A DNA stretch of 64,000 bases from Tomocerus qinae (taxonomy: Eukaryota; Arthropoda; Collembola; Entomobryomorpha; Tomoceridae): assembly GCA_020055645.1 (NCBI GenBank), contig CM034546.1:33046001-33110000 (forward strand), given 5' to 3'. Under the pieces are notes generated by a model. The model ran no database searches and had not been told where the DNA came from. It worked only from the letters and a program-made list of their open reading frames with translations. Position numbers and translations under genes: made by a program. Positions 21,617-53,424 of this stretch are shown piece after piece (position 1 is the stretch's first letter; each line of letters opens with the position of its first letter).

Positions 21617-22000
21617 CAGAGAATAGAATAGAATAAAATATTTATTGCGTTTCCAGTGAGACGCAGCTCATCACACAAAAGTCAGTTGTAATGCTATTTT
21701 AAGAACGATTTAGAATACTTTAGTATGAGTTCACATAAGACGATTGTTTCTGCATATAAATATTTCCAGATTACAATATAACGGTAAATGTAAGGTAGAT
21801 ATATGATGAGGGAAAGAACACACTACTAAAGCCGTTTCTGATGCTATATCAGTTAGGCTTTTTATAAATGATATATGTCTGTGATCACATGTACATTATA
21901 TAACGAATAATCCATATTCAGCACGACGACATCAGTGTCATATCCAAAGTCAAGAGCTGATACTTCATATACACCAGTTGTTGTACATTTAGAGCCACGG
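21617..22000 (-). mobile_element. SINE copy, 5'-truncated, minus strand
   Basis: Read on the minus strand it starts inside the body (GGTGTATATGAAGTATCAGC) and passes a motif shared with the other copies (GGATATGACACTGATGTCGTCGTGCT). It ends in TGGAAACGCAATAAATATTT followed by TTCTA repeats. The body matches the copies at 22122 and 49562; the segment ATAGCATCAGAAACGGC is shared with 26211-26290. Confidence 0.65.
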
Positions 22001-22121
22001 GTGTAACAATGGAATGGAAGTAAATGGTTGAATAAAAAAATAGCATAGATTTACTTACACTTTGATACCATAGAAAACTAGAAAGAAACTACTAATAATA
22101 GTTAAATTTCATTCTTCATTC

Positions 22122-22300
22122 GGGCGCACAGGTTAGTCGAATGGTGTAAAAATCCATTCGTTTAACTTGTGTTGGGGTTTCATTCCCCAGTGAACTCGGT
22201 GCACATGAAGCTTTGGCTTTGGATATGGCACTAACGTTGTCGTGCTCAATGTGAAACATTTCTTCATATAAGATGAATGTATTATTAACTACATCGGTAT
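22122..22300 (+). mobile_element. tRNA-derived SINE, head and part of body
   Basis: The head GGGCGCACAGGTTAGTCGAATGG resembles a pol III A box, and GGGGTTTCATTCCCC is a B-box-like stem and loop. The body (GGATATGGCACTAACGTTGTCGTGCTC) matches the inverted copy just to its left, so the pair forms a natural foldback. It is truncated before the A/T-rich tail. Confidence 0.6.
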
Positions 22301-23254
22301 ATTGTATTAAGTCGACCTTGATGGAGACTTGATTAACTACTTATTCAGTAGAAGCTTTATTACCACATTTGCATTGGTTGCAGTAATGCAAGCAATGCAA
22401 ATGTAGTAATAACGTTACTATTTATTAAGTTGTAACTGACGTCAATGTAAACTTAATTGCTGCGTCGACATTTATGCAACACTCAGATAATGCAAATTTA
22501 AGTAACGGCTTCGATTTCATGTGAACAAATCGTGATATTCTATTGCCAACCAAGCTCAGTTTTGATAGGTTAACATTGTTAACATTAACATAGTTTTGCA
22601 TTCAAGATGAGCAGTTTTCGGCAGGTTTGATAAATATAATTTTACATTCAAGGTAAGCAGTTTTTGTCAGGCTTGATAAATGTATTGGGACAATCATCAT
22701 TAAATAACACCATTTAAAAATGCTGATGCAATTTTTTCATAATTAGACTAATGCATAGAAAGGAGGAATAAAAGGAGTTTATCGAAGCTCCTATCGTCTT
22801 TGCATAAATAGAGCAACGATCAAAGAAATTTTATTTATTTATTCGCTAGGCTCCACAGGTTTGCAATGAGGAAATTTTTATTGCAATTGGCCTTTGTTCT
22901 ATATTATTTTTGTTGTATTTCGACAAAATTATTAAAAAAGAAAATAAAAATGTATCCACGATATAAATTTGAATTGATAAGTTTATTATTCATTCTCACG
23001 GTGAACAATCATACATTGATCATTACAGGAGAATCAGGACACGAATTCTATTTCAAAGGAGTGGTTAGACGAGCATAACTATCAAAGTAAATATAAAAAA
23101 ATAGATACGATCGTTATTTTTTTTAAAACCCTGACAATTGTTTAACATTAGAGGTTTTAACGGTAAGGATATATATTTACATATTGATATGTATATTTAC
23201 TAAAAATTAAATTGCTATTTGATCTATTTTATTTTAAAATTTTAGCTTGGGGTC

Positions 23255-23469
23255 CGAATATTAAAAATTCGTGGACTTCTAAAAATTGCATTTGAATGTA
23301 ATTTTAGATACAAATCTTGTCCTTGTCCAACTCTGTGAAAAAAAAGAAACAAATAGGAAAATTTTAATTCAAGAAGGGGGGTTTTTGCTTCCATTATTGA
23401 TAACCCTTTACTATCCGCAATCGAGGAATTAGCAGGAAAAGCTATAAGTAAGAATTTAGGGATGTAGCA
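23255..23469 (+). pseudogene. Polinton small core-protein-like remnant
   Basis: A lysine-rich stretch followed by LIQEGGFLLPLL resembles the C-terminal QxGGFL-type motif of the small basic virion protein coded by Polintons (adenovirus core-like). It is broken: after the motif the reading must shift frame to continue as LLSAIEELAGKAISKN. The identification rests on this motif and on the neighbouring polymerase. Confidence 0.5.
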
Positions 23470-23472
23470 CAA

Positions 23473-23595
23473 ATGTCTAGAAAAATGAAACTTATCCCTA
23501 GCGAAGAATACGAAAAATTATATGAAGAGAAATATAACAGAGGGAATGATGTTGATAAGTCTTCCAAACTTAATATTAAGTTACTATTTCACTAG
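23473..23595 (+). pseudogene. Short ORF of Polinton type (MSRKMKLIP...), 40 codons
   Basis: It starts four bases after the stop of the core-like remnant and reads MSRKMKLIPSEEYEKLYEEK. Polinton gene clusters commonly have an ORF opening this way after the core protein. It is probably truncated; no function is assigned. Confidence 0.4.
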
Positions 23596-23750
23596 TAACT
23601 TATAATCTTTTCAATGTATTCAAATCTATATATGGTTATAACCAAGGTTTTTGATGAAAACTTATGAATATTTTATGAATTTTAGTTATTTTTAATCCTT
23701 TCTCGACATAATACTTAAGATTTCTGTAATGAGTGATTTAATCTATCTTA

Positions 23751-24365
23751 TCAAATAAATTTGGTACTAATTTTATTTTGTCTACTATTATATTTAATAT
23801 TTAATTTCTCAATAAGTTGCTTTTGATAAGGACTTAATAATGTCTCATCTATAGACATTGTCTCTGGGGCTAAAGGGAAATCATTGCCTCGATCATGTAA
23901 TGCTTTATTATGTTCCAAATTACACATTACATAACCCATATCACTCCTGTTATCTATTGTCATAACATCAAAAGTTTCCCTTTCTTTTTTGTTAACCAAC
24001 GGTAGTAGGAATGTGGTAAATAATCACTAAGGGCTGGGGCATAAAGATTATTTACGTCGTACATAATAATATATGATTGATCCTCTAGGTGACATTCTTA
24101 ATTTATAAATCTATTATTTGCGTTAGCTTCTCTTTTAGTTATACAACTTATTCTTCTACGAATCATTTTATCTCTTTCAGGTTTCCTAATAACTAACGGT
24201 TTACTCATGTAATTTAACCTATTTAACTGTTCAGAAATAAACATTAATTCATCCATTAATTTTTCAATACAATTATCACCTCTGTATGTTTTTCGAGATA
24301 TAACTTTCCCATCATTTCTTATAACAGCATAATCATAACTATAATAATGCAATTCATCAGTTCAC
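23751..24365 (-). pseudogene. Protein-primed family B DNA polymerase fragment (Polinton pPolB)
   Basis: The first part (24098-24365) contains YRGDNCIEKLMDEL, typical of the exonuclease region of Polinton polymerases. The second part (23751-24058) contains YDVNNLYAPALSDYLP, LHDRGNDFPLAPE and LLSPYQ, the start of the polymerase domain. A TAA follows the first part (about 24098), and the two parts sit next to each other although several hundred residues normally lie between them. An internal deletion therefore removed most of the exonuclease. The palm and thumb are missing. It cannot be functional. Confidence 0.75.
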
Positions 24366-24421
24366 AAAAATCAGCATTCGCACTAAATCAGATAAATGGA
24401 GATCTTACAACTTACAAATGA

Positions 24422-24428
24422 TATAAAA
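24422..24428 (+). promoter_or_regulatory. TATA box of the 24.5-kb secreted gene
   Basis: TATAAAA lies 58 bases before the ATG at 24486. The homologous gene at 39.4-39.8 kb has TATATAAA at nearly the same distance from its ATG, which supports both. Confidence 0.6.
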
Positions 24429-24485
24429 GAACTCAACTTAACATTACTAGCGACAAATTAAAAACCTGCTCACGATAGCTACAAG

Positions 24486-25037
24486 ATGAAGGTAAATCAC
24501 TTTATTTAAGCAGTAGTAAAAATAATTTCATTATAATTACCTTTTAAAACTTATGCCAGTTGTATTGTTTGCAGTTGCTCACACTGGTTATCTTATGCAT
24601 GGTCTCAGGTGTCATGTGTAAATACAATTTACGCAACTAGTCTTGTTGGTCAAAAGTTGCGATATGTGTCAACAGGTAGACGATAAATATTATATCATCA
24701 CTCACAACAACATCTACTGCATGAAAAAACAGCATGCATACTTTTTGTTTCAACCAACTCTTCAAGGTAGGTTATTGATTTCCTTATTTATTATATACAT
24801 TCATATATTAAATATATACTTAGTCTGACTATGTCATTTTTAGGACGGGCAATTATTTGCCCTGAAACTGCATGTTCAATGTTGTTAATATTGAACACTT
24901 CACATCCCATCCCTCATCATGTTTTATCAACTTCGTGGGATGGGGAGTTCACTTTTCGTTGTAGCTATGAGGAAGATACTAACATATCTTACTCATGTCA
25001 ACTTGTTACTATAATAAATGTGTACATGAGTGTTTAG
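24486..25037 (+). pseudogene. Secreted six-cysteine protein gene, 3 exons, frameshifted
   Basis: Exon 1 codes only Met-Lys (24486-24491, donor GTAAAT). Exon 2 is 24560-24766 and encodes a signal peptide (LYCLQLLTLVILCMVSG) and CDMC. Exon 3 is 24844-25037. Intron 1 is phase 0 after codon 2 and intron 2 is phase 1 after QPTLQ, exactly as in the homologue at 39376-39845. Shared features are a C-x2-C, a fourth-helix-like YIITHN..YCMK, FQPTL.G, then RAIICPETACS and six conserved cysteines. The total (407 coding bases) is not a multiple of three: the signal-peptide frame hits a TAG at about 24638 and the rest continues one frame over. It lies 60 bp from the Polinton polymerase remnant. The family is unknown. 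Confidence 0.6.
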
Positions 25038-25040
25038 TCA

Positions 25041-25214
25041 ATACGTAGATAAACTTATCATACGAGTAATATTTAATTTTCCACGTTAACATCTGAAGGA
25101 ATAAAATAAAACACGTACAAACTGCAGATAAATGTACTCTGTTCTCTCATACCTTAATATACTCTTCTACTTACACACTGCACTATATAATCACATATCC
25201 AAGTTGATAAACAT
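25041..25214. repeat. Direct repeat, copy 1 (pairs with 25844-25960)
   Basis: Shared blocks: GATAAACTTATCATACG, AACATCTGAAGGAATAAAA, CTCTTCTACTT and CACATATCCAAGTTGATAAAC. Each copy lies just 3' of a small gene (the six-cysteine gene and the two-finger gene), as if a cassette had been duplicated with its flank. The second copy has an internal deletion of about 55 bases. Confidence 0.75.
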
Positions 25215-25432
25215 AATCATTATCATTATCATCGTAATCATTCAGTGTATAGGCAACATTGAATGAGAGTAGATATCATTACTGATTTGCCTACCTACAT
25301 CATAGTCGTCAATTTATACAGACATACTTTTATTATTGTGTACTGACTGTTGTTCTTCATTTCTGTGTAATTAGTTTGCACTTTTTTTTTAAAAACTATC
25401 CACTTTCAACATCAAATCACTAAACAACAAAA

Positions 25433-25724
25433 ATGTTCATCTGTGATTTTTGTCAAGCTTCTTTCATCAAGAAAGAACGTCTTGAGAACCACGTACGTCG
25501 CCACACGTGTGAGAAGCCGTTTAAATGTACCTTGTGTCGTTGGTTGTGTGTTGGTTTGCATCGAAACAAGAGTGTCAGAACCACATGGACCACTGTGTTT
25601 GTTCGGTAGGTAACATTCAATCTAACTTATAACGATATGATATAGTGCTTAATCTATCTATTATACCAATACTTATTTTTATTTTTACTCGCAGCTCCAT
25701 CAGTACACTAACTGTAAAAAATGA
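25433..25724 (+). pseudogene. Small C2H2 zinc-finger gene, 2 exons, frameshifted
   Basis: Exon 1 (25433-25605) begins MFICDFCQASFIKKERLENH, a full finger (C2..H..H), followed by TCEKPFKCTLC, the first half of a second finger. One frame over, the exon continues with the second half (SKQECQNHMDHC), so there is a one- or two-base shift near 25545. The donor is GTAGGT; the acceptor CTCGCAG leads to exon 2 (25695-25724) with a short tail ending NCKK. A possible AATAAA follows at about 25766. The full product would have had about 67 residues: a two-finger mini-protein, not a typical cellular zinc-finger gene. Confidence 0.5.
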
Positions 25725-25843
25725 AAGCTTACAATGAACGTATGTACCATCATCATTCAAGATAATAAAGTTTTTGTCTTTTGATAAGTGCTGTTCTGCT
25801 TCATTTATTTAATAACATTTTTCTCCATTATATGGCTACTGCC

Positions 25844-25960
25844 GTAGATACATAGATAAACTTATCATACGTGTAAATATTTAATTTTCCATTCTAACAT
25901 CTGAAGGAATAAAACTCTTCTACTTTACACTACATAATTACATATCCAAGTTGATAAACT
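25844..25960. repeat. Direct repeat, copy 2 (pairs with 25041-25214)
   Basis: See copy 1. It starts about 120 bases after the stop of the two-finger gene. Confidence 0.75.
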
Positions 25961-27501
25961 TCGTAATCTCATCAATGTAATCTTTCTATGTATAAGCATG
26001 CATACAACAACATAGCCAAGTCAAGCATTATACATATCTGCTTAATGTTATAGGAAACCAATGATGGTTGGTGCCAATGCTTCGGATCGTTGAGCTAAGC
26101 TAAGCAATAACATCTCATTATTGACTCTTTTGTAGCTTTATAAAAACTTAAACTGTTGATAAACAAGTCATATCCTTCAAGTACAATTTTGCAATTCAAA
26201 CCACTGTGCATAGACATATATCATTTATAAAAAACCTAACTGTTATAGCATCAGGAACAGCTTTAGTAGTGTGTTCTTTCCCTCATCAGATATAATTATT
26301 CATACATTTGTCAAATAGTTAATGCTTATTAGAGTCAGTTTTTGCTTTCTAACTAACATAACAGACATAATTATTTATAATCCTAATATTTGCTTCCAGA
26401 CTTAAAAGGTAGAGCGAGTAAAAAGGATTTTCATTCATTCATTGGTCCAAGAGCGTAACCTAAAGGAGTTTGACATATAATTATATAGGTTATGTAAATG
26501 CTCCTTTTTTGTATATCAAATAATTCATGAAAATTCTCCCTAGTTACCTTTGCGCTCAACTAAATTTTGTGTGCGCAAGGGTTTATGAATCAGGCAATTA
26601 AAGTAATAAAGATTCCTTTTCTCCATTTGGGTTGTTGCACACACTACACTAACTATCCTCCTCCAGAGAATACTGTGTGCCATGTAGCACAAAGCCCGAA
26701 GAATATTTACAATATACCCTTGCCCTACACAATAGTCTAATTTTATCCAAAGATACACTCCAATTTAAAATTCATTCAGAGTAGCATCACATAATAGGAA
26801 TTCTTTTTTCCTTCCTACCCACCTACCATAAAAACCTAACCTAGTTTATTATAATGTAACCTAATTTATGGATGACACGGAAACTAGAAAGTCGTTGCTA
26901 CTACTCCCTCATATATTAATAAATACTTTATACCAACCAGAATTAGAAAAAGTTACGCCAAAAGATTTTTATGCCAAAAGATTTTTATGCCAAAAGATGT
27001 ATGCCCAACCAATAAAATATCCGTCACAAACAAATTACAATTTATTATTAAATTATAATTCCCCAATTCTAAAAAAACTCTTTATCTTAACCACCAAACT
27101 TAACCAATGCACTCATAATGAATAATAGTTCCGACACTCCCACAAAAATTGGCATTTGCGAGTAGTTTTGACATATATATACTCAAACCATTTATGCTCA
27201 AACCATTGCAATGAGGAAGTAAAGAGACATAATTCCAGAAAGTGATGAGGAATCTATAATGGAAATGAGACGAATGTAGGGTTTGAGAGCTCTTCTTCCA
27301 CCATAACCGGTCTCTAGAATTCAGATGGGCCACTGAAGTTAAATTGAGGTAAGATAAAATATCTACTAAAGTTAGTTATATACATAGCAATTAAAGTAAT
27401 ATAGAAGAAAATGTCCTACATAATGAAGCTAATGTATTTTAGAAAACTTTATTAAACCCACTACCATGAAAAGTAGTACTCCCCAGTCCTGCAGTCCGTG
27501 A
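25961..27501. other. Intergenic with SINE scrap and short tandem repeats
   Basis: 26211-26290 matches the body of the SINE at 21617-22000. At 26952-27003 the unit TGCCAAAAGATTTTTA is repeated three times, which creates an accidental 85-codon ORF. No supported gene. Confidence 0.5.
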
Positions 27502-28220: not shown

Positions 28221-28635
28221 TGGAGAATTATGTATCATTATGGATGGTAAATCATGCAATAATTACGTGCACATAAGTGACGTAATTATTATCTTAAGTA
28301 GGTAAAATATTCTGCTTAGGTAAGCATGTCGATGTAACCAGGGAATTAGGTCAAGCCTTTTCAATGGATTAGAATTACGTAATGCAATCTTATGTAATAT
28401 TAAAATAGCAATAAGTAAATGCAAGTACCTTAAGAAATTATGTAATAATTTAGGTTAAATTTACTTTTGTTCTATTAATTATTATGAAATGGGGTTACGG
28501 ATTATTATATAAATATATGTACTTTAAGCAAATAAAGTTAGTTGTAAACTGAGATTCTATTTGTGTAGTCTTTTCATTTACTCTCATAACAACAAGACGT
28601 AATAGTTCTAGTCGACGAGACTCTATAGGCGTTCA
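28221..28635 (+). repeat. 5' LTR of the BEL element
   Basis: TG...CA ends. It contains ACGTGCACATAAGTGACG, a TATATAAATATATG TATA-like tract (absent from the 3' LTR) and AATAAAGTTAG as a possible poly(A) signal. After the LTR, TATTAGCTCCCCTAGC would be the primer-binding area; the tRNA was not identified. Confidence 0.92.
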
Positions 28636-29898: not shown

Positions 29899-31638
29899 AT
29901 GAGTGGTAGTGACGATCCAGACAAGAGAAAAACTAGGTCTCAATATAAGGCTCCGGATCTGAGATTTTCTGACATTGGCAAAAATCCTGACCAAGTTGCC
30001 AGGGAACAACTGAAAAGACAAAGGGAAGCAGAAAAATTAGAACAATCAACGAGTACAGCAGATCAAACTACTGTAGTTTTTTCCGAAACTACTGAAGCGG
30101 ATCAAACTACAACAGATCAATCAACTGTAGAGTTTCCAGAACAAACTACCACAGACCAAACTGCGGTTGTAGTTCCAGAAACTTCTGAAACCGAGCAAGC
30201 AGCAAGTGAGTCAGAAAAAGACTCCGAAACCACTTCCAAGGTAACTACACAGCGGGAGGAAACTCTTTTTGACTTATTTGGTCAAGTTATAAAAAACGAA
30301 TTAGAGTTTACCTCAGAATCCTAGTACTAGCCAATTCCATTCCCTCACTCCTTCTCCGACCCGAGACGAAGCGAGAGCCGAATCTGCAGAAAAAACCAGG
30401 GAAGAAGAGGTTGGAACTGAGGCTGAACAAATACTCTAACTGCTCGCTGTAATGCTATAACAACACGGATCACGGCTCATAGTGCCAGCCCTCCTACGTT
30501 ATTGACCACAGCCGAGATAGAAGTGTTATTGGATCGTATGAAACTGCTTCAGACGGATTTGATTGGTCATGGCACCTTGATGTACAGCAGACTTACTGAT
30601 GTCACGGTACCAAGTTTGGCAGACGCTATTGTCACTTATGATGCCTTGAATGACAACTTCACGGCCTCAAAAATCACCCTGCTTAATTTAAAAAAGGCAT
30701 TGGATTCATCATCCGGTCAGGGGCTAAAGCCCCCGAAAATAGAACTTCCCACTTTTTATGGAGACCGGAGTAAGTGGGTTACATTTAAAAATTCCTTTGA
30801 CTCTTTGGTGATAAAATGTGACAAATATTCGGAGGTAGACCGGATGAGGCTGTTGTTTCAGTCCCTGACTCCACAAGAAGACGAGACGACGAAAAATCCC
30901 AAGTTAAAGGATGCGCTGGGAACAATTTCGGGCTTAGACGTTACCAGCGCGAATTTTAAAATAGGATGGGATCGTCTTTTAGCCAGGTTTGACTCTCCGC
31001 ATTTGATCTGCCACTCTACGATTGCCCCAATGTTCAACAGCTATTCACAGCTGAAAATGAAAAGTAGGACCGAAACAGGAATTCTTCAGATAGTAAATAC
31101 TATCAAAACAATTAGACAGCAGCTAGAAGCTGTCAATTTAGGAGCTGTGCCGTTGGAAGAAGTTATATTCCTACATTTTGGACTCTCTATGCTGGATAAG
31201 GAGACATTAGAGCAGTTCAATAAGCAGCTACCAGCCATTGGATTACCCTCCCTCCAGGCCTCTTTGGATTACTTAACCAAGGATGCAAGCACTATTAGTT
31301 TGACCCATCAGTTTAAAACCGGAGATAATTCGGCAAAACAGAACCCTCCGAAACCCAAGGGAAATTCTCAAGTGCTCGCCGTGCAAACCACGGGCTCTGG
31401 AAAAAAGAATAAAAAGAAAAAGGGTAACCAGAACTCCGGAAATCAAGGAAATAATTCCGGACAATCAAAACCACAGACGGAGAATAAGGGGTCTTCCGGA
31501 CAATCGTCCAATAAATCAAAAAGTTCTTCTCCCGAAAGCAAGAAGAGGAAACCCACGCCGTTTTGTTGGTATTGCAATAAAGATGGAGCCGATCACTGGC
31601 TCAGGCAATGCCAATTTTATCTCATGAAATGGTTTTAG
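29899..31638 (+). pseudogene. Gag of the BEL element (two compensating frame breaks)
   Basis: The N-terminal part (29899-30324) is Thr/Glu/Gln-rich with tandem DQTT-type repeats. The frame stops at 30322; a neighbouring frame carries the next 35 codons (acidic REEEVGTEAE) to a TAA at about 30437. The first frame then resumes and runs to 31638. The second part is typical BEL/Pao gag: LPTFYGDRSKWVTFKNSFDS, a C-terminal basic Lys/Ser/Asn-rich tract, and a CCHC zinc knuckle (CWYCNKDGADHWLRQC). It forms the capsid-like particle. The two shifts make this copy unable to give one continuous Gag. Confidence 0.8.
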
Positions 31639-34600
31639 CTGCAGGGACCACGGATTATGACCTGGAGAAATTTTGGCGCACCGAATTTCCATTTTCCCAG
31701 GAAGAGCAGTTTTGTGAAAAACATTTTTATGAAACAGTCCGTATATTGCCAACTGGTAGAGTCGAGGTATCTCTACCATTTTTGAAATCTCCAGAAGAAT
31801 TAGGGGATTCATTGCCAGCGGCCATGAGAAGATGGTACTCCTTGGAGCGAAGATTAGCAACTAACCCAGAGCTAAGGGAAATTTACTATAAGCAAATTCT
31901 CAGCTACTTGGACCATGGTCACATGGAGCTTGTTCCCAAGGGAGAAATGGCCGCACCAGCTTATTATATTGCACATCACGCAGTTTATAAGCCGGACAGC
32001 ACAACTACACCAGTTAGGGCTGTATTTGATGCTTCAGCAACAACTTCCAGTGGGAAATCACTCAATCACCTATTGGGTAACGGACCTCCACAGCAGCTGG
32101 AACTTTACGACCTCTTGTTGCTATTTATTCGATATAAAGTTGCAGCTACTGCTGATGCTGAAAAAATGTATTGGCAATTCCGAGTTCCCAAGGAACAGTG
32201 GGATTTTCAGCGAATTTTATTCCGGGCCTCAAGAAAGGATCCGATTCAGCATTATCGAATAAAATGTTTAGTGTTTGGAGCCAAGACATCTCCGTATCTT
32301 GCTGTGAAAGGTATGAAGTACTTGGCAGAGACCAAGAAAACTGTATATCCAGCAGGGGCGGGAGCTATTCTTCAATGTTTCTACGTTGACGATTTTTTAT
32401 CCAGCTTTGAAACCGTGAAAGAGGCGGTTAAAACAACGATCGAAATTAAGAAGATTCTGTCTCCAGCTCATCTCAACTTACGGAAATGGTCGAGCAATAA
32501 TGCCGAATTTTTGGCTTCTATCCAGACTTCGGATAAATCTACTCAGCAGCCTATTTTGATGGATGAAAACCCGGAGACAGTCAAAACCTTAGGAATGAGC
32601 TGGAACCCAAAAACTGATATCTTCTTTTACAAGGTCAATATCAACTTGGACAAAAATCATACAAAAAGGACTATACTCAGTGATATAAGTCGGATTTTTG
32701 ATCCTATGGGTTACTTGGCCCCCGTTATTGTCTCATCCAAAATCCTTATGCAAACCATATGGAAGGAAGGAACCGACTGGGATGACGAACCAACGGCAGC
32801 ATCTCTGACAAAATGGGAACAATTCGCAAGCGAATCGCCCCAGCTGGAAAAAATCCAGATACCAAGATGGGTAGGTTTGTCGACTGAGGGCCAGCTACAG
32901 CTTCACGGATTTTGTGATGCATCAGAAAACGCTTTTGCGGCAGTTATCTACTTACGGACTCAGCTTGGATCAACGGTCAACTGCCATCTGGTAACAAGTA
33001 AAACCAGAGTGGCTCCAGTCAAATTGATGACCATTCCCCGGCTAGAGCTCCAAGCAGCGCTACTATTAGCTAAATTGATGCGCCACATTACCAAACTATG
33101 GCAGTTTGGGACGGAGAATGTCTATTACTGGAGCGATTCCAGCATTACATTATCCTGGATACATTCGGATCCCCTACGTCACAAAATGTTCGTGGCTAAT
33201 CGAATCACAAAAATTCTAGATGTATCTCTTCCATTCCAATGGATTTACGTATCCTGGCAAGAAAACCCGGCGGACTGTGCCTCCAGAGGACTCCAACCTT
33301 CTGAATTAGCGGATCACCCGTTATGGTGGCAAGGCCCGGCATGGTTGAAGGACTCAGGGATGACAATTCCAGAATTTAACCCTATCACTTGTCACAACGA
33401 CGAGACGGATGCTGAGTTGAAAACTACGTTGGTGGCAACATCAATGATCAACCCAATCATGGATCGGGTATCCAACATCTCCAGTTGGATACGAGCTGTA
33501 AAAATTGTAGCCATTTTGCTGTCATTATTTCGTCGGAAATCGTTCAAGTCAGCAGGACATTTTTTATACTATGGCTCACATTTAAAGGAAGCCGAAACCT
33601 TTATATTTCGTCAAATTCAGCAGACCTCTTATCCAAAAATTAAAAATGACCCAACCAGCAGTGATCCATATCACCTCAAAAAATTGAGTTTGCTGCGAGA
33701 TAATGATGGGATCATTAGGGTGGGAGGACGCTACCCTACAATGCTAAATAGCAACATTTCCCAGGATACCCAACATCCCATTCTCCTCGCCGGAAGTCAT
33801 CCTCTGGTCAAGCAATTGATGCTGCATACTCATCAAAATATGGGGCATGCGGGAATTAAAAGTACGCATAATCAGCTACGACAACGATTTTGGATTCTAA
33901 ATGCGGCTAAATATTTGAAAACCATTATTCATCACTGCCTGATCTGTTACCGATTCCAAGCATCACCGACCTTACAAAAAATGGGTCAGCTTCCAGCAGA
34001 ACGATTGACACCGGCCAGGCCATTTACAGCGACTGGTCTGGATTTTGCGGGACCATTCCATGTCAAAACTGGCCGCACTACTTCCCAAAAGGTCTACATA
34101 GCTCTTTTCATTTGTATGGCGACAAGAGCCGTGCACTTGGAACTAGCATCGAGTCTCAGTATGAGCTCTTTTCTACTATGTTTACGACGATTTGTCGCCC
34201 GAAGAGGAATTCCTTATACGATATTCAGTGATAATGGAACTAATTTTGTCGCCGCACAAAAATACCTCAAGGACGTCACCATTAATCAATACTTGGGAAA
34301 ACACGTGTCGGAGACAGGGAAAACATTAATTCCGGACTTGGAACTACATCGAATCAAATGGAAATTTTCCCCTCCATTAGCTCCACATTTCGGAGGGATT
34401 TCGGAGAGACCATTGTCAAACAGATTAAGCACTACCTGAAGCGGATGGCGGTTGACGACAGTTATACTTGGGAACAATTGGAATCCATTATAATCTTCGT
34501 TGAATCCATCTTGAACTCCAGGCCAATAAGTCCAATCTCCAATGATCCAAATGATTTGGAACCATTGACTCCAGGCCATTTCCTAATCGGTTCGAGTCTC

Positions 34601-34912
34601 CTCGCATTACCAGAACCAGACTTAGGCCACCTGAAATTGAACACTCTAAACAAATATCAATTGATCACTAGGAGGATGCAGGAAATATGGGCTCAATGGA
34701 AACAGGACTACGTGCATAATCTAATAAAGGCACAAAAATGGAACAAAGAGACTCAAAATCTGAAACAAGGAGACAGGGTATTGCTACTGGAACCGGACTC
34801 CCCTCCGTTAACCTGGAAGGTGGGACGAGTCGTAGAGACAAAACCAGGACAAGATACTCTTGTACGAGTATGTACCGTAGAAACGGACAGCACTTATCAA
34901 GAGAAAAAGTGA
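31608..34912 (+). pseudogene. Pol of the BEL element: RT, RNase H, integrase; protease absent
   Basis: A 943-codon frame (31608-34439) begins right after the gag zinc knuckle. It opens with the pre-RT region (DLEKFWRTEF) and has RT with PVRAVFDASA, LNHLLGNGP and the catalytic YVDD (32382-32393). RNase H follows (GFCDASE, PRLELQAA, YWSDSS), then an integrase with an HHCC zinc site (residues about 742-785) and D812, D875, E933. The frame breaks just after the catalytic Glu (about 34407); the integrase C-terminal part, including LEALTPGHFLIG-like sequence and the W-rich DNA-binding end, continues one frame over (34408-34912). A further TGA cuts the tail, whose probable end (RRAINKLAKLPLE) follows in frame. 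The aspartic protease expected between knuckle and RT is gone. Confidence 0.9.
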
Positions 34913-35071
34913 AAATTGGTGAAAAACTCCAAAATAATCCGAAGGGCTATTAATAAATTGGCGAAATTACCACTGGAACCAGCCATTGAGGAAGTTTCTG
35001 AACAGACCAGGGATAGACCTCGGACCCGCTCCCAGAGCAAATACTATGATCCAAATTGGGTGACAAAAGTA

Positions 35072-37950
35072 ATGCTATTACTCCAGATTTCAGAGCAAGT
35101 GCTAAGTCAAGGCACAAATTCGGTCATGTATTCTAAAAATTACATAGACGATCCGAATTATGTGGAAATCTTCCCGAACTGTACTAATAATTGGATCAGC
35201 ATTCAGGAAATTCCTACTTGCCATAAATATGCGGCCTGGATCCACTTGGACACTGACGGACAAATCTGTGCCCGAAGTAAGAGCTGCTCACATACGCAAG
35301 TAGCCGGCGATGGCCAAGACTGCCAGACTTACTCCAATCATTGTAGAGTTTATGGCAAATCTATCAATGTGGGTAACCTCAAATGTCAGAAGAATCGGTT
35401 ATCCAGTCATCATGAAGTCACCCAACAAATTAAGAATATTAAAACTCACTTGTGTGCTATTGGAGAATATACTACACGACCGTGCAACCACTTCAGTAAT
35501 ACATTCGAAGAGGTACCAGTGATAATAGCGAATGGGCAGCTTTATCCAGTACGGGAGTTGAAAATCCAACAGGATGCACTGCATAAGGAAATTGACTCTT
35601 ATACTTGTGAAGGATCATGCAAGGAGAAGAATTGTTCCAAAGGAGCCTGCATTGGAGATAACGTTTTTTCAATTCTTTCCCTTGTGCAATTAATGTTACT
35701 GATGGAACCGGATGCCACTGCAAATACAATGAAACTGCGGTGCAGCATTATATCTCTACGGGCTCAGCGACGATCGCGCCACATTGTTGGGGACACCTAA
35801 CGTTTCCAGTAAAAAGAGAAGTGGGACCACCGCTAAGCGGAAGCCGTGAGTGTAATAACAGTGTTGTTGAATGTTCAAGGACCGGTCTTCAAATAATCAC
35901 ACCAGGAATAGTTGCAAAATATATTAAGGCGTCAAAAAATCCTGCCTATGTTTCTATTCTTCCGAATTCCGCTAGTACAGAAATAGTCTTTTCAGCTGTA
36001 ACGGCTGCAGGAATAGGAAAAATTGAGGTGGAGATATATTTTGAGAACTATGACGAACCAACCCTAAGATCACTAATATGTCCTAGGATTCCTGTTTGTG
36101 AACTAATCACATGTCACATTTGCCTCGGGCGTTGGATGAACCCATCATGTTACAGTACGTACCATTGGATTATAGCAGCAATGGCAGGACTAGGTTTAAC
36201 GACCATATTTATTCTATTACGATGGATATGGAGTTTGTTTAATTGGTTATCCTGGTGGATCGTATATCCTTGTAAAAAACTGCTGAAATATAGGTTAGCC
36301 CAGAAGGGTAAACGTAAAAAAAGGCAGTTACATCCATCAGATGAGGAAGCTCAATTATTAGTAGATTTAGCACCTCAACCGTACGCTCCGACTACGCAAA
36401 GAGTGAGAAGAAATTCTAAGGCGAAAGGAGCGCATATAATCAACTTAGGCCTCTTATTTCAATTGACTACGTCAGTGTTATCTTGTAGCAATTACGCTAG
36501 TATGAGTGCAAGTAACACAGATCAAAAGAGAACCTGTTCCGTAAGGTTGAACATGCGACTCGCACTCTCACCTATTTCACAAACAAGTTGCGTGAAAACA
36601 TCTGACTCCCGTAATGGTCTACTTGGCACGGTAGAGATACAAACAAAGTCTGTGTCTCTTCACTGTAACAAGGAACTTTTGTATTATGTTCCTCTCGCTA
36701 CAGTCAATTGTCATTCATCCAGTCAATGTTATAATTTATACTCGACAGCTGAATGTAATGGATACAAATGCAGAGACTTTGGAGTAAATGACACGATAAA
36801 GGCATTCTCACATACCTCGAATCAATTAGGATATGGGTTTTGTCAATCTATTCGAATTCCTACATGTCCATGGTGGCTAACCCATGATTGTATATTCTAT
36901 AAGGTAGCATTTGAACCGAAAATCAGCACAGCTTATACTGTGTTCTCTTGCCCAGAATGGACGACGGCTGTAAAAATACAGACCACTCTCCATTTGGGAC
37001 AAGAGATTACAAGGAATGTAACAACATTATATGCAGGCGAAAAAATTAGTATAAAAGATATCGATTTTACATTAATTGCAGTAAGCACGCCACCAGCTCC
37101 TATTTTGGATCAATGCATTATAGAGAATAATAGGCAATACGCTCTGACCCCTTGTAATAAGAGAGGATCAGTAGCTCCAGGAGTTTTAGGAGAGATACAA
37201 TGTAACAGTCGAATTGAAGCGACTCAGGTAGCCAAAACTTGTTTTGCTAGCCAAAATCTAGTGCGGGTTATTCCAGACTCCGAAGGCATCAAATGTCTGT
37301 CTAGTCTAGTGGATCCCAGCAAGATTATGACTGAAAATTTACTGCCCTTAAAACTACAAGGAGGCGTATTAGTGCCAACGAAGAATACAATTGCCTATGA
37401 AAGTTCGGTAGGATCTCTGATAGAAATTCAATTGTCTAGCTCAAATCTCCAACTAGTAAAGGAAGTCGAGGAAGCGCGTTGCGATGCATCTTTCGCCAAA
37501 TTGCAGGGTTGCTATTCGTGTGCTAGTGGTGGTTTATTAACGGTCTTAGCGCGCGTGGACGTAGGTCAGAATGTGGCTACTTTAGAATGTAATTCGGCTG
37601 GGTTATTTATTCCAATACATTTGACACAGGAATTCAAACATTACGATTTAGTAGTAAAATTGGATCTACCTGATATAAATATGATGTGTCAGCTCAAATG
37701 TGCGAAAAACACAGTTGATTTACGTGTTCAGGGTCATTTACAGTATCTACCTGATAACGATGTAAGGACAAGTGAAATGTCGATTGCTTATGACCCAGGT
37801 CCTAATCTTTCCGGATTTAATCTATTATCACTAACAGGCATTAGTTGGACATCGTGGATATATAGAGGGACAATTGTATTTATGGTAGGACTACTGGCAT
37901 TAAGTTTGGCCATTTCCACTATGAAACTTGCGGTTAAGAAACTTCTATAA
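35072..37950 (+). pseudogene. Envelope glycoprotein of the BEL element, bunyavirus Gn/Gc-like organisation
   Basis: It starts at the ATG at 35072 with a weakly hydrophobic leader. A cysteine-rich first ectodomain follows (to about 36150), then a membrane segment (about 36160-36270), a basic cytosolic stretch with KRKKRQ, and an internal hydrophobic signal (about 36430-36485). After this come a second cysteine-rich ectodomain containing GCYSCASGG (37507-37530) and a C-terminal membrane anchor (about 37850-37915). Two ectodomains each with a membrane segment, plus the GCYSC-type motif, match phlebovirus-like glycoprotein precursors, whose second subunit is a class II fusogen; such genes are known in a few BEL/Pao lineages. 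The frame breaks once, at a run of six T at 35664-35669. As it stands it does not encode a whole protein. Confidence 0.75.
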
Positions 37951-38117
37951 AACCCGTATCCAACGCCTCACTGTCAAAAAAGAGAGAGTGATTAGGTCAT
38001 AGATTAAGGAAATAAGTTAAGGAAGTAATTTAAGGATAATACTCACTTTTTCTAAATTGGTTCCACTACCTCAGTATTTACTTAGCCACTTACGTGTACG
38101 CATAATTCCTTTTCGAT
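37951..38117 (+). other. Spacer between envelope and accessory ORFs
   Basis: Non-coding, AT-rich; may hold a splice acceptor or start signal for the next ORF. No clear motif. Confidence 0.4.
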
Positions 38118-38618
38118 ATGTTCCCTCCAGAACAGAAGGAGTTTTCCGAAACTATAGACGAATACGATCCTCCTACAACTCCAATTAGACAAGAACAAGT
38201 CCACACTCCGTCACCAATAAATCCCTTTACACTACTAAGGAGAGAAGAAACACTACCTGAGTTTCTAGACTATTTTTATTCTCCTAGTGCAGTATATGGG
38301 AGAGTGGGGTCCAGTAGTGCATATGACCAAGCCTACTGGGACTTATACTTGTTAGCACAGAGTGATTGGAGATCGATAGTGGCAGAATTACAACGAGTGA
38401 GAAGAGCGAATCGGGATCTTACTCAACAGGTTAATTCCACCGCTACACAAAGAGAATCGGAACTATCACAGGCTATTGAGTCAAAAGACCAAGAAATTCT
38501 CCGACTAAGTGAAACCGTGCAACAACTTAGGGACGACTTGGTACATGAACAGAATAAGCAGGTTCAGTCTGCAGAGAAAGCTTATATTCCGTTAGCAGAG
38601 GATGAATCTTGGGAGTGA
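38118..38618 (+). CDS. Accessory ORF A, coiled-coil, 166 residues
   Basis: It begins MFPPEQKEFSETIDEY with a proline-rich, acidic N-terminus, then a short conserved block (LPEFL...YSP...AYDQAYWDLYLLAQSDW) and a long coiled coil from about residue 90 (heptads of L/I/V with E/Q/R). It ends acidic. No signal peptide or membrane segment. It lies after the envelope gene, where complex retroviruses place accessory genes, and is intact in this otherwise broken element. It is homologous to the next ORF. Function unknown. Confidence 0.6.
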   Translation: MFPPEQKEFSETIDEYDPPTTPIRQEQVHTPSPINPFTLLRREETLPEFLDYFYSPSAVYGRVGSSSAYDQAYWDLYLLAQSDWRSIVAELQRVRRANRDLTQQVNSTATQRESELSQAIESKDQEILRLSETVQQLRDDLVHEQNKQVQSAEKAYIPLAEDESWE

Positions 38619-38723
38619 TAAACTAAAAACCAGTTTTCGTTGTGAATTCATGTGTAGTGAATACGTTCTTTCATCTCACATTTATTTTCCATTAAGTAAT
38701 ATCTCAAGCTAAAAATTTTCATT

Positions 38724-39165
38724 ATGCCTCCTATACGCCGTGTAGTGTCACGTAATGTACCTATTATACCAGGACAGAATCCAATAGATTCGGTCCAGGA
38801 CACTACAGGAGTCAACTCCAGAGTTTTTAAGAGAAGAATATTCTCCTGAGACGATATTACAAACAATGGCTCCAAGTGAGGATTTTATGAGAGCTTATTC
38901 TAATTTACATAAATTGGCGCAACGCTCCTGGCGGGCTATGGTCGTCGAACTCATGCGACAACGAAGAAAGATAGCTTCTCAAGATAGGAAGTTGAAAGCA
39001 TCTAGTTCTCAGAGAGAAGCGGCTACAGTCGAGGAATTGGCAGTTCTCCGGGTAAATATGGAGAAGCTAAGGGAAAGATGCGAAAACGAGGTAGAAAAAA
39101 GAGAGCATGCCGAAAAGGAATGGACAAATATACTAGAGTTTATGAACGAAGACAATCCGGAATAA
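38724..39165 (+). pseudogene. Accessory ORF B, coiled-coil paralogue of ORF A, frameshifted
   Basis: An ATG at 38724 starts a basic N-terminus (MPPIRRVVSRN). Near 38780-38812 the frame changes to one that runs PEFLREEYSPE..., AYSNLHKLAQRSWRAMVVEL, then a coiled coil to 39165. The block PEFL..YSP......AY..L..LAQ..WR..V.EL.R.RR is shared with ORF A, so the two arose by tandem duplication. Reading only from the ATG at 38866 gives 99 residues, which would omit the conserved N-terminal part. Confidence 0.55.
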
Positions 39166-39348
39166 GGTTAATTATGTCTAGAATTGATTTAATCTAGTAT
39201 ATGACTCTATTCTATGGAATTAATGACACTAGAATAACTATATATCTTAAGGCTCATAGCGTAAGGAGTTTTTAAAATTAAAAATGATATTGTATGAAAA
39301 TAAGTATAATTCAATTAAGTCATTTTTTATTCTGGGTATGGGTTCATT

Positions 39349-39354
39349 TTTTAT
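39349..39354 (-). terminator. Poly(A) signal AATAAA of the antisense secreted gene
   Basis: AATAAA on the minus strand about 20 bases past the TAA stop at 39376. Confidence 0.55.
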
Positions 39355-39375
39355 TGTTCACATTTTTTAAGTCAC

Positions 39376-39845
39376 TTAAAAAACAGTACAATTGTACACG
39401 AAATTACCCATGTCGTCGGTAATTAGAACCAGATGAATGGGGTCTGCCGCCAGGTTCATGGTTAGCAACCATGAACATGAGGTGTAGGGGCAGATTAAGG
39501 CCCGCACTAGAAATAGAATTGTAAAATAAACACAGATTAATTTTAAAATTCTAAACCAAGTTATATATGTAAGTCTTACCTGCCAGTGTGGGCTGGAAAA
39601 AGAGGGGGAGATAAGCCCTCTTAAGGCAGAAGAGCTCATTATGAGTAACTACGAAATATCGTAGTCCTTCTGAGTCTGTTTGACAGAACTCACAACTCCT
39701 CTCAATGAGGCGACGGGTGTGAAAAACCGCACCGGCCAACCCCACTAGCAGAAGACACAGCATAATAACCTGAAAAAAGGTATAAAATTAAAATATTAAT
39801 TCATGGTCCTTAACTACTAATGAGTTAATCAGGTTTTACCTTCAT
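39376..39845 (-). CDS. Secreted six-cysteine protein, 3 exons, antisense inside the BEL element
   Basis: Exons: 39840-39845 (Met-Lys only), 39580-39769 and 39376-39506. GT-AG introns of 70 and 73 bp; total 327 bases, 108 residues, no break. The product has a signal peptide (MKVIMLCLLLVGLAGA) and then six cysteines: CEFC, FCLK, ICP, TSCS and a final NC. Motifs shared with the broken gene at 24486-25037 are C-x2-C, VVTHNE, FFQPTLAG|, RALICPYTSCSWLL and D..(E/N)F at the end; both intron positions and phases agree. It has its own TATA box (39904-39911) and a poly(A) signal just past the stop. Antisense orientation means its introns would survive the element's RNA stage. The family is unrecognised. 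Confidence 0.75.
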
Positions 39846-39903
39846 GATAAGATGAACAGGTTTGGATTCCTCCAGTTGAATGAACATACGGATAGCCTCC
39901 AGG

Positions 39904-39911
39904 TTTATATA
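39904..39911 (-). promoter_or_regulatory. TATA box of the antisense secreted gene
   Basis: TATATAAA on the minus strand, 59 bases before the ATG at 39845; spacing as in the homologue at 24.4 kb. Confidence 0.65.
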
Positions 39912-40021
39912 GTACTTATTAAAAAGCTGACTAAACAGAAACAGGAAGTATCGTATGATTATTTATCAGTTAAAATGCAGTGTATGCTGGAATTTTTGCA
40001 ACATCATCGGAACTAGGGTCC

Positions 40022-40034
40022 GAGGGTGGGAGGA
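40022..40034 (+). other. Polypurine tract
   Basis: GAGGGTGGGAGGA directly abuts the 3' LTR, as expected for plus-strand priming. Confidence 0.85.
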
Positions 40035-40389
40035 TGGAGAATTATGTATCATTATGAGTGGTATATCATGCAATAATTACGTGCACATAAGTGACGTAAT
40101 TATTATCTTAAGTAGGTAAAATATTCTGCTTAAGTAAGCATGTCGATGTAACCAGGGAATTAGGTCAAGCCTTTTCAATGGATTAGAATTACGTAATGCA
40201 ATCTTATGTAATATTAAAATAACAATAAGTAATTACAAGTACCTTAAGAAATTATGTAATAATTGTAATAATTTAGGTTAATTTTACTTTTGTTAGTAAA
40301 TAAAGTTAGTTGTAAACTGAGATTCTTTCATTTACTCTCATAAACCAAGACGTAATAGTGTCTAGTCGACGAGACTCTTTAGGCGTTCA
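40035..40389 (+). repeat. 3' LTR of the BEL element
   Basis: Nearly identical to the 5' LTR, but without a block of about 60 bases before AAATAAAGTTAG and with a short AATAATTGT duplication. It is followed by AGCAT, the near-match of the left target flank. Confidence 0.92.
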
Positions 40390-43689: not shown

Positions 43690-44815
43690 ATGGAGATTTA
43701 CGTCCACAGTTGGTAATATTATCATTAAGCAATATTTATTATGTAAGTAGTTTGTAATAGGACGGAATAATCTATTTGTAATACGTAATATGTAATTTAT
43801 ATTTAGGTACACAGCATTACCTAATAGTAACTATATGTACCTTTATTCAGATGAAGACCTGCAACTTTTCTATTACATAATCTTATGTGGGAAATTACTA
43901 TGTAGACTTACTATCACTATTTAATGAGGTTATATTTTTATATAAATAGAAGTAATTTTGACCTAAATAAAATAGTTTCAAAGGAATATTCTATTTGTGT
44001 ATTATTCTTTATTTGCTCTCATACATCAAGACTTAGTATTTCTAGATGACGAAAAGTATAGGCGTCCAAATTAGCTCCCCTAACGACTGAAACATGTTGT
44101 CCGTCACTTTTTTCGGGCCCCGCAGGTTCGCATTATATTCCAGGTATACTGCCCCGAGGAACACATTTCTTAGTATTAAATAACTTATTAAGACACCGAC
44201 GGGTTTTTACATGTAAGCCAAATTAAAATCTCAGTCAGTAAAGTGAACTTGTGCACAGTTACTGTACATACTTCACCATTAAGTAAATAAAAACTGTCTT
44301 ATCAGCAAGGTGAAGTGCAACACTGATAGCATAACTCGAGAACCAGTTTAGTTACGCTACGGTGAACAACAGCAGTGTGAGTGAATTGAATGAGTGCCGA
44401 CCAGAGCAAAAAATAAGCCTATAGCAAAGAGACAAGAGCAAGCAACTGAACTTCTCTTTCATTTTATTTTCCTTCACTCACAACCCCACATTTGTACTTT
44501 TAGAGCAGACGAATTTATGAATTTCTATTTCATAGTGATGAACCTTATTATGCAAAAAACATTAGATCAGGTACCAAGATTCAGAATATAGCTGTTGTGA
44601 CTGTATTATCTAGAATCTAAAGGGTAGGGCTCAGGACATTTTAAAACAAGGAACTTTAACTTCATTTGACGACCACGCCCTAATAGGCCCACCCAGAATT
44701 TTTGACTAATTTTCGCGTAAAGGACTTCACACAGGGATATCGGTAGAGAAAATTTCCGAAAGTCCAACTTTAAAATCCGTAGTATCAGACCTCGGATATT
44801 TAAAATAACAATAAA
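43690..44815 (+). mobile_element. Decayed LTR and leader of a second BEL element of the same family
   Basis: TTCTATTTGTGTATTATTCTTTATTTGCTCTCA, TATAGGCGTCCAAATTAGCTCCCCTAA and the following 700 bases (TATACTGCCCCGAGGA, CAGTGTGAGTGAATTG, ATATCGGTAGAGAA) match 28550-29430 with many changes. It has no gag or pol, so it is an old truncated copy rather than a solo LTR. Confidence 0.75.
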
Positions 44816-45080: not shown

Positions 45081-45964
45081 ACTGATAAATTTGTTTATCA
45101 TATAGGATAAATTTTTAATTAATTTATTTTATTTAAAAAATATATATTGTTAAAACGGGTAAAATCAGATGTAAAATATGAATTCATTCATTATTATTTT
45201 GTAGTCAGTTGTGTACGGACAAGCATAGCGTACTAATAAACTCCTTCTAGATTACCTTATAAAGCTCTATATTTCCTTCTCTCTAAAATCAATATGCTGT
45301 CATCCATTTATTTCGTTGCATCATAACATCTATACATAGTTTGAGAGCATCGTTACTACTCATTTTGATGTAAATAAAAAATTGTTGATTGTAAAAATCC
45401 TTTCCTTTATTTAATTGGAACCTGCTTTCGTATAAATTAATAATGCAGGTGCGTAATCTGAAGCATCTTATTTACTAGAAATAAATATCATTTATGGCAA
45501 TCAAATGTCTTATATTAAAACTGACAAAAGACAAACTGAAACTGAACAACATGACAACACTATGCATGCAAAAAGATGTAAGTAAATGTTAGTGAGTGTA
45601 ATAAGCAATTATTAATACAATTTCTATCTTTATTCTACTAGTCGATGTTATTAATATATTAGTCAAATGTACATGTATGTACATTTGAATATGTAACATT
45701 ACAATGTAATTTTCCTGTAAAAATCTTTTGTTCATAAAACAATGTAGTGAGGAACGCCGCGTGTTATTTTCAAAGCTCTTAACAATGAACACAAAGTGTC
45801 AGAACACACTATTGCCCCTGCTGTAATAACACTTTCAGTAATTAAATTAATAATAATTTAAAAGGGAAGTGAGGAGGGTTTACCTTCGAGTGTTGGTTGA
45901 AACAACAAAAATGTATGAGTTCCTTTTAAATGTTTTAATATTTTAGCCCAATCGATGTTATCAT
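45081..45964. other. Non-coding spacer
   Basis: No supported gene. A 67-codon minus ORF at 45589-45792 shows no domain. Confidence 0.5.
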
Positions 45965-52100: not shown

Positions 52101-52312
52101 CTCGTCACTAGCCGCACCTGTCCGAGGAAGCTGCGTTGCCGTTTTAACTGGAGTCTCTGGAAATCGTCACAGCTGTATCTCGTGAGAGCCTGTTGGTCGG
52201 ATTTCACTCGTCACTAGCCGCACCTGTCCGAGGAAGCTGCGTTGCCGTTTTGACTGGAGTCTTTGGAAATCGTCACAGTTGGATCCCGTGAGAGCCTGGT
52301 GGACGGATTTCA
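52101..52312 (+). repeat. 106-bp tandem duplication in the Copia leader
   Basis: CTCGTCACTAGCCGCACCTG... recurs at 52207 with six or so changes; the two units abut. Confidence 0.85.
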
Positions 52313-53424
52313 TCAAACAACCGAGCCTACACTATCAGCGGAAGTACCGTGGGAAGAAGAAAAACATGATGTCACCAATTAACCACCACGAGGGAAAACA
52401 GATGGGTCAATGGATATCAAATAACCATAGCCACCGACATGTTTGCGGAGATAGACGTCTCTTCTCCAGTTTGGCAAACATCACACACCGTAGGACCACC
52501 CGCATTGCTCCAGGACTGTTGAAGGACGCGAAGGCCATTGGAGAAATCAAACTACGGGTGCTGGCTGGTGGAAGATGGGGGGTACAGACATTAAGGAAGG
52601 TGCACTGCATCCCGAGGTCTCCCAACTACGTGTCCACAATCGCCCTACAATATGAAGGGGTGATTCCTGTTTCTAAAGAACCTGGAAAATTGACGTTCCT
52701 CAACCATTTCAACAAAGAGATTTACTCCGTCTCCGGAGAAGGAGGGAACATGAGGCTCCACACCCCAGAACCGAGAGAAGTTTTTTGCGACAGATGGCAC
52801 GAGAGACTGGGACATTTGGACACCAGAGAACAGCAGAAGGCGATTCGGCTGCAAAACTTCAACCTGGACCACGGCATGAAGGTGGAAAAGGACTATAAAT
52901 GCAGTGTATGTACGTGCGCACTTCTGGGACCATCAATGAGGGACAACGAGAGAGCTGAGGAAGGATGCCTGTTTCTGAATGTCCTAAAGGTTAATCTTCC
53001 GAGCAAGCATGGAAAGAACTACATGCTCCTAATAAAGGAAGGAGGGACGGACTACGTAGCAGCGACTTTCTTTGCGACTTATCACAAGGAACTCATCAGT
53101 GCTGCTGGAATGGGCTTCCACGAGGAGATGAAGAAAGGAGGATCCACAGTAAATAAAATCGTATCTACTGTCAACCTGGACACCCGAACATGGGAGCAGT
53201 TTATCGCACAAAACGAAATCAAAGATGCTAGTCGATGGAAGACCCCCAAACCACTTCTCAACAACATCATCAGGATGGCGTGCAAAATGATGCTGGAGTC
53301 AGGACTACTCGACTCCCATTGGGAAGATGCAATTAGACATGGAGTCTACTTGCACAACCACACTTTTACAACTCCAAGTGAAAACCGGGTTGAAACCTTC
53401 AGTTGGACACATTCGCATCTTTGA
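52279..53424 (+). pseudogene. Copia protease / GAG-pre-integrase / integrase remnant
   Basis: A 381-codon frame. WISNNHSHRHVCGDRRLFSS matches the Copia protease start, but the DSG active site has become NNH, so it is inactive. IGEI and LRKVHCIP follow, then the GAG-pre-integrase motif CDRWHERLGHLD with a CSVC zinc pair. Then comes integrase-like sequence with its central catalytic part missing and the end WKTPKPLLNN..RMACKMMLE..LLDSHWEDA..HGVYLHN. The frame is lost at 53400, and the usual continuation (RIFECNVKFY... YLGHLNNRNYIWV) runs one frame over to about 53700. Confidence 0.8.

Follow-up and report, generated by a model that had tools for sequence, protein, structure and literature searches.

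How can a gene interrupted by two introns persist inside a retroelement? Retroelements are expected to lose introns, and the question is raised by a stretch of 64,000 nucleotides from the collembolan Tomocerus qinae (GenBank assembly GCA_020055645.1, contig CM034546.1, here C1:33046001-33110000; below, the window, to which all coordinates given without a contig refer). A BEL/Pao element lies there on the plus strand, bounded by long terminal repeats (LTRs) at 28221-28635 and 40035-40389. Between its envelope gene (env), with the open reading frames (ORFs) that follow it, and its 3' LTR, a three-exon gene unit is found on the minus strand (39911-39350). The gene is present as a complete unit, its location is the same in separate insertions, its coding sequence is under selection and it has moved recently. 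Very probably, it is a resident accessory gene of an enveloped BEL/Pao (belpaovirus-like) lineage, which would be expressed from its own promoter, be spliced twice, encode a secreted six-cysteine protein and act for the element. The genome searched for this analysis comprises 334 Mb in 115 contigs.

The initial annotation of the window described a complete intron-bearing antisense gene in an enveloped BEL element, and its model was reproduced (TATA box, exons, introns of 70 and 73 bp, a product of 108 amino acids, AATAAA). Read along the minus strand, the unit starts with a TATATAAA box (TATA; 39904-39911) located 66 bp before the ATG, the distance being 65-67 bp in the three open copies described below. 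The coding part of exon 1 (39840-39845, ATG at 39845) consists of Met-Lys and is followed by intron 1 (39770-39839, 70 bp, GT-AG, phase 0), by exon 2 (39580-39769), which encodes a signal-like segment and three of the six mature cysteines, by intron 2 (39507-39579, 73 bp, GT-AG, phase 1) and by exon 3, including the stop codon (39376-39506). A poly(A) signal, AATAAA (39350-39355), stands 20 nucleotides after the stop, as compared with 17-20 nucleotides in all three open copies. The exons and introns are those of a sequence model, and the antisense transcription and splicing of the gene are likewise predicted. Overlap with a conserved frame of the sense strand was also considered and was ruled out, the longest sense frame over the gene having 44 codons in the window copy.

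Is the gene a part of the element or a passenger of one copy? A DNA search of the genome revealed three copies of it, namely the one in the window and those at C1:35343115-35343652 (93% identity) and C1:10082455-10082978 (78%). Both outside copies are placed and oriented like that of the window: they follow env, ORF B and ORF A and precede an LTR. The 3' flanks of the three insertions do not match one another. The annotation had proposed looking for the gene between env and the 3' LTR in independent insertions, and had taken its absence from other copies as a sign of a chance arrival; it is present in those insertions, at the same place and antisense. Because of this shared place, it can be assigned to the element family; it did not fall into a single copy by chance. 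The element at C1:10.07-10.08 Mb has LTRs identical in 411 of 411 bases, the one mismatch in their alignment being the first base outside the LTR, and an exact 5-bp duplication, AGTAG; therefore, the gene and its introns arrived there recently with the element. For the 35.34 Mb copy, the stretch read did not reveal a 5' end. When env DNA was used as the query, five related places were found, four of them with the gene. The fifth, at C3:39.628 Mb, keeps env, the ORFs (with stops), the upstream part and the LTR and lacks the gene body, which is read as a later deletion. A divergent case is found at C3:39.640 Mb, where an antisense gene is separated by about 0.1 kb from the end of an env whose protein is 64% identical. 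Both introns of this gene are at matching positions, the second in phase 1, and its product shows 51% identity and retains the six cysteines; the env beside it carries stops, and the LTR side of this place was not identified. The antisense position next to env is thus kept across elements whose env differs by 36%.

The comparison of the three open copies shows how the gene has been maintained. TATA box, ATG, splice ends, stop and AATAAA are retained in all of them, and the exons are free of gaps, while both introns contain insertions or deletions. Between the window and 10.08 Mb copies, 45 of 60 differences, the stop codon included, fall on third codon positions (p = 8e-11). Fifty-nine nucleotide differences result in nine amino-acid changes; with random placement, the mean is 36.7, none of 5000 trials falls below 24, and 77% of the placements create a stop. 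The codon-position bias, the placement test and the gapless exons rule out a frame open by chance. The ratio of nonsynonymous to synonymous divergence (dN/dS) is 0.06, 0.05 and 0.05 for the three pairs, with dS of 0.21, 1.11 and 1.21. For env, two comparisons gave 0.08 and 0.09, the gene thus being slightly lower. This is a protein gene under purifying selection, the direction of the estimate being firm and its exact value not. These data also bear on the proposal that selection acts on the antisense RNA, which would regulate the sense genomic RNA or give rise to small RNAs, and not on the protein. The unit spans the sense 3' region, and regulatory antisense transcripts have been discussed for retroelements (PMC7264820; PMC10186651). 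However, selection follows codons, as the third-position excess, the nine changes instead of 36.7 and the lack of any frame shift in three copies indicate, and six cysteines are kept at 51% protein identity. As the sole function, an RNA role is strongly disfavoured and we consider it very improbable.

What kind of protein is encoded? The product of 108 residues starts with a strongly hydrophobic N-terminus (mean hydropathy of 2.8 over 14 residues) and looks like a secreted, signal-peptide-bearing protein. The six cysteines of the initial annotation are found in the predicted mature part; the total, however, is seven, one being located within the signal-like segment. No homologue of the product was found in the protein collection or in Pfam, and PDB sequences gave chance matches. 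Origin from the element's own env was considered too, but a short stretch aligns at E = 0.076 only and was treated as chance. A different reading accepts a genuine accessory gene and assumes translation from antisense RNA that is initiated in an LTR or arises by readthrough, with an intracellular product whose hydrophobic start is a membrane anchor. The antisense genes of human T-cell leukaemia viruses (HTLV) indeed start in the 3' LTR (PMC10186651), and the case for secretion comes from a hydropathy plot. This reading is opposed by the TATA box, which is conserved in all three open copies at 65-67 bp upstream of the ATG, and by the cysteines that follow the hydrophobic start, whose even number fits an oxidising compartment. 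We consider it unlikely.

Several points weigh against a resident gene with a secreted product. One of the five closer elements, that at C3:39.628 Mb, is without the gene body. The gene at C3:39.640 Mb lacks a clear TATA box and begins its exon 2 out of frame, and neither ORF A nor ORF B separates it from env in this divergent copy. An env protein search of the genome, in which 61 of 91 candidates were scored and the places were counted by hand, gave at least 69 matches at about 45 places. Those beyond the closest five are 33-49% identical, and by protein search, the downstream DNA itself not being read, the gene was not detected beside them. Splicing and secretion are deduced from the sequence. 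The selection estimate consists of three pairwise comparisons, since three open copies were found, in one genome. The function of the product, including the role of immune modulator or effector suggested in the initial annotation, is a guess, because neither proteins nor Pfam provided a homologue and the PDB matches were at chance level.

The gene also has relatives elsewhere, which raises the question of whether it is a member of a host multigene family trapped in elements, its conservation reflecting use by the host. A protein search of the genome gave at least 17 matches at 10 places, and one at 45.7-45.9 kb of the window brings the places to 11. Five of them are associated with BEL elements, namely the three open copies, a relic at C1:25.924 Mb, which has stops and lies about 0.1 kb from an LTR fragment, and the divergent C3:39.640 Mb gene. 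The other six (C1:24.512, C1:25.920, C1:17.036 and C2:40.561 Mb, and the window at 24.4 and 45.8 kb) show no visible attachment to a BEL element, and introns and promoter resemble those of an ordinary host gene; both observations favour a host family. On the other hand, the non-BEL relatives are broken by stops or frame changes (a frame change at C1:24.512 Mb; a stop at C2:40.561 Mb, where the match is weak, E = 0.25). No open copy outside BEL elements was found among the best candidates, which were scored exon by exon, so that a strongly diverged host gene could escape; this absence speaks against an ordinary host family. Within 200 kb around the window, the matches to the gene were at chance level (E = 0.12 and 0.99). 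Two of the six non-BEL relatives lie at the same element with terminal inverted repeats (TIRs), described below, and the position after env across elements with a 36% env difference also speaks against trapping. A host family is, in our view, improbable. The second decayed relative in the window (45735-45929, minus strand) comprises the end of exon 2 and the start of exon 3 with the intervening intron kept and an early stop. As a separate observation, a fragment at 43923-44803 is 72% identical to the element's LTR and leader, and this relative lies about 1 kb further.

The other relative in the window was described in the initial annotation as a broken homologue beside a Polinton polymerase remnant, from which two unrelated mobile carriers were deduced. 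The homologue is real. Located at 24422-25034 on the plus strand, it has a TATA box with similar spacing, the Met-Lys exon 1 and both introns at matching positions, with a stop and a frame change in exon 2; its pieces are 31-45% identical in amino acids (E about 2e-13). A BEL relic around it was considered, but no gag, pol or env match was obtained at E up to 1. Instead, the relative is located within a 4.5-kb element at 21805-26288, which has 85-nucleotide TIR arms (21799-21883 and 26209-26293, 93% identity) and an exact 6-bp duplication, GATATA, on both sides. The relative at C1:17.036 Mb, for which exon 2 was not found, is 88% identical over 43 residues of exon 3. It shares with the window the DNA from the gene to the repeat end, the same terminal repeat lying about 1 kb outside the gene, and it does not match the window beyond the repeat or inward of exon 3. 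Taken together, the two places show the gene family in a TIR element at two sites. TIRs and a 6-bp target duplication are marks of Polintons, and both are present in the 21805-26288 element. However, unlike a Polinton/Maverick, the element is only 4.5 kb long, and no Polinton protein (protein-primed PolB, integrase, capsid) scored above chance in Pfam or PDB for the pieces tried. The open stretches at 23754-24361, where the polymerase remnant would lie, likewise gave nothing above chance in either collection. A second, unrelated carrier with TIRs is supported; its identity as a Polinton and the remnant were not confirmed.

It is possible, with slightly less than even confidence on our part, that the gene represents a portable family whose members have introns and their own promoters and encode small secreted proteins. 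Shared by two unrelated mobile elements, an enveloped BEL retroelement and a TIR DNA element of Polinton type, the family would have passed between them as DNA and would serve as an extracellular accessory factor, antisense placement enabling the RNA-copied element to keep a spliced gene. With the related gene in a DNA element, it can be tested directly whether unrelated mobile elements exchange accessory genes.

How might such a gene function within the element? In the mechanism we propose for the resident accessory gene, transcription would start at its own TATA promoter beside the 3' LTR and run towards env. The transcript would be spliced twice, giving a signal-peptide-bearing protein with six cysteines, disulfide-bonded, of about 92 mature residues. 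In the sense genomic RNA, the introns would ride backwards; since this RNA is the opposite strand, they would not be recognised there, and thus would escape splicing and survive packaging, reverse transcription and integration. The secreted protein may act outside the producing cell to the element's benefit. Action on host defence is a tentative suggestion, somewhat less likely than not, while action on re-infection through the element's own envelope is rather unlikely. A two-intron gene has in any case been kept intact through at least one very recent insertion, apparently by backward carriage, and selection on its protein is about as strong as on the element's envelope.

Genes in a comparable position are known from other systems. 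Plant LTR elements carry antisense additional ORFs (aORF-3R) before the 3' LTR, kept in many copies, and gene23 of the maize element Grande has its own upstream promoter and a nuclear product (PMC7264820). The extra gene of these elements is antisense and occupies the interval from the last sense gene to the 3' LTR (PMC7264820). The gene described here is, in the same way, antisense between env and the 3' LTR, kept in independent copies (four of five env places) and, in the three open copies, under purifying selection on its coding sequence. The aORF-3R are mostly from plant elements and the main text of the source does not mention introns (PMC7264820), whereas an enveloped BEL element, two introns, a signal-like start and six cysteines are found here. 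The HBZ gene of HTLV-1 is likewise antisense and protein-coding and lies towards the 3' end of an enveloped element that replicates by reverse transcription; it is expressed from the 3' LTR and encodes a nuclear basic leucine zipper (bZIP) factor, and the RNAs of HBZ, APH-2, APH-3 and APH-4 are spliced (PMC10186651). The present gene differs in having a TATA-ATG unit outside the LTR, no Pfam domain and a signal-like start. Atlas virus of hookworm, a member of Belpaoviridae with a Gn-Gc envelope, resembles the element as a BEL/Pao element with a phlebovirus-like envelope; it has one Gag-Pol-Env frame and no introns, and its main text mentions neither antisense nor accessory genes (PMC9094657). 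Intron-containing genes are also spread by Penelope elements of bdelloid rotifers, for which antisense templates were discussed as a cause of intron retention (PMC3846280). In both cases a retroelement moves intron-bearing genes, but the cargo of Penelope, another class of retroelement, consists of host genes copied in trans (PMC3846280), while here it is a resident, conserved gene of an LTR element. For the extra ORFs of bdelloid LTR elements, the passage concerned mentions no intron (PMC5408684). The full-text literature searched, which leaves most subscription papers outside, yielded no account of an antisense gene in a BEL element that is spliced and encodes a signal peptide. To our knowledge, such a gene with its own promoter, two introns and an apparently secreted product is new. 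With it, the antisense accessory genes known from plant retrotransposons and from deltaretroviruses are joined by one in an enveloped BEL element, and its secreted-looking product would represent a novel type of accessory factor in elements of this kind.

The host element has the order LTR, gag, pol, env, ORF B, ORF A, antisense gene, purine-rich tract and 3' LTR. Its assignment to BEL/Pao with a phlebovirus-like envelope is supported by the A17 peptidase (E = 8e-53), Phlebovirus_G2 (E = 1.9e-62) and the paired LTRs. The two LTRs, of which the 5' one reads TGGAG...GTTCA, align over 344 bases at 96.8% identity and differ by indels as well. The gag-like frame (30502-31638) matches DUF1759 (PF03564, E = 1.4e-10), and pol (31608-34912) comprises a reverse transcriptase, below the Pfam cutoff, the Pao peptidase A17, a zinc-binding integrase domain and DUF5641. 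The envelope region (34916-37950) contains Phlebovirus G1 (Gn-like; PF07243, E = 2e-5, below the Pfam cutoff) and G2 (Gc-like; PF07245) domains. In the window copy, pol is split over two overlapping frames, and env likewise; this, together with the diverged LTRs and their indels, indicates that the copy is not new. The 3' LTR is preceded by a purine-rich tract (40018-40034), similar in the other two copies. The flanks of the element, AGCCT and AGCAT, possibly represent a target duplication with one change. A search of viral contigs with pol gave no match, although records of the same or a near genome may be excluded from it. A large population of BEL-type phlebovirus-like env genes is present in the genome (about 45 places), several with long open frames, and two of these places, about 10 kb apart at C1:84.989 and 85.000 Mb, score equally.

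Two accessory ORFs separate env from the antisense gene. ORF B (38118-38618, plus strand, 166 amino acids) is coiled-coil-like, matches no family and had no relatives in the protein search; ORF A (38806-39165, plus strand) is its diverged tandem relative (31% amino-acid identity). Both are present in four of the five related copies with the region read, in one of them with stops. The modules of the element differ in their histories. Env is 90-94% identical in all pairs of the three copies, while ORF B is 94% identical between the two outside copies and 65-66% to the window. The ORF A stretch is 87% identical between the window and the 35.34 Mb copy and 64-68% to the third copy, and the gene follows the pattern of ORF A. 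Recombination between co-packaged genomes would explain these differences, and the mosaic of the window (36300-40035) and the two other copies suggests recombination between element lineages.

Among other features of the window, which outside the BEL element has mostly 30-36% G+C, a stretch of 48% G+C at 52279-53424 contains a Copia-type pol fragment (Pol_BBD and gag_pre-integrs, both below the Pfam cutoff). C2H2 zinc-finger frames at 10344-11102, 14283-15476 and 56671-57588 are probably host genes. A zinc-finger-like piece, judged by eye, was also seen between the gene and the repeat end in one further stretch of the genome.
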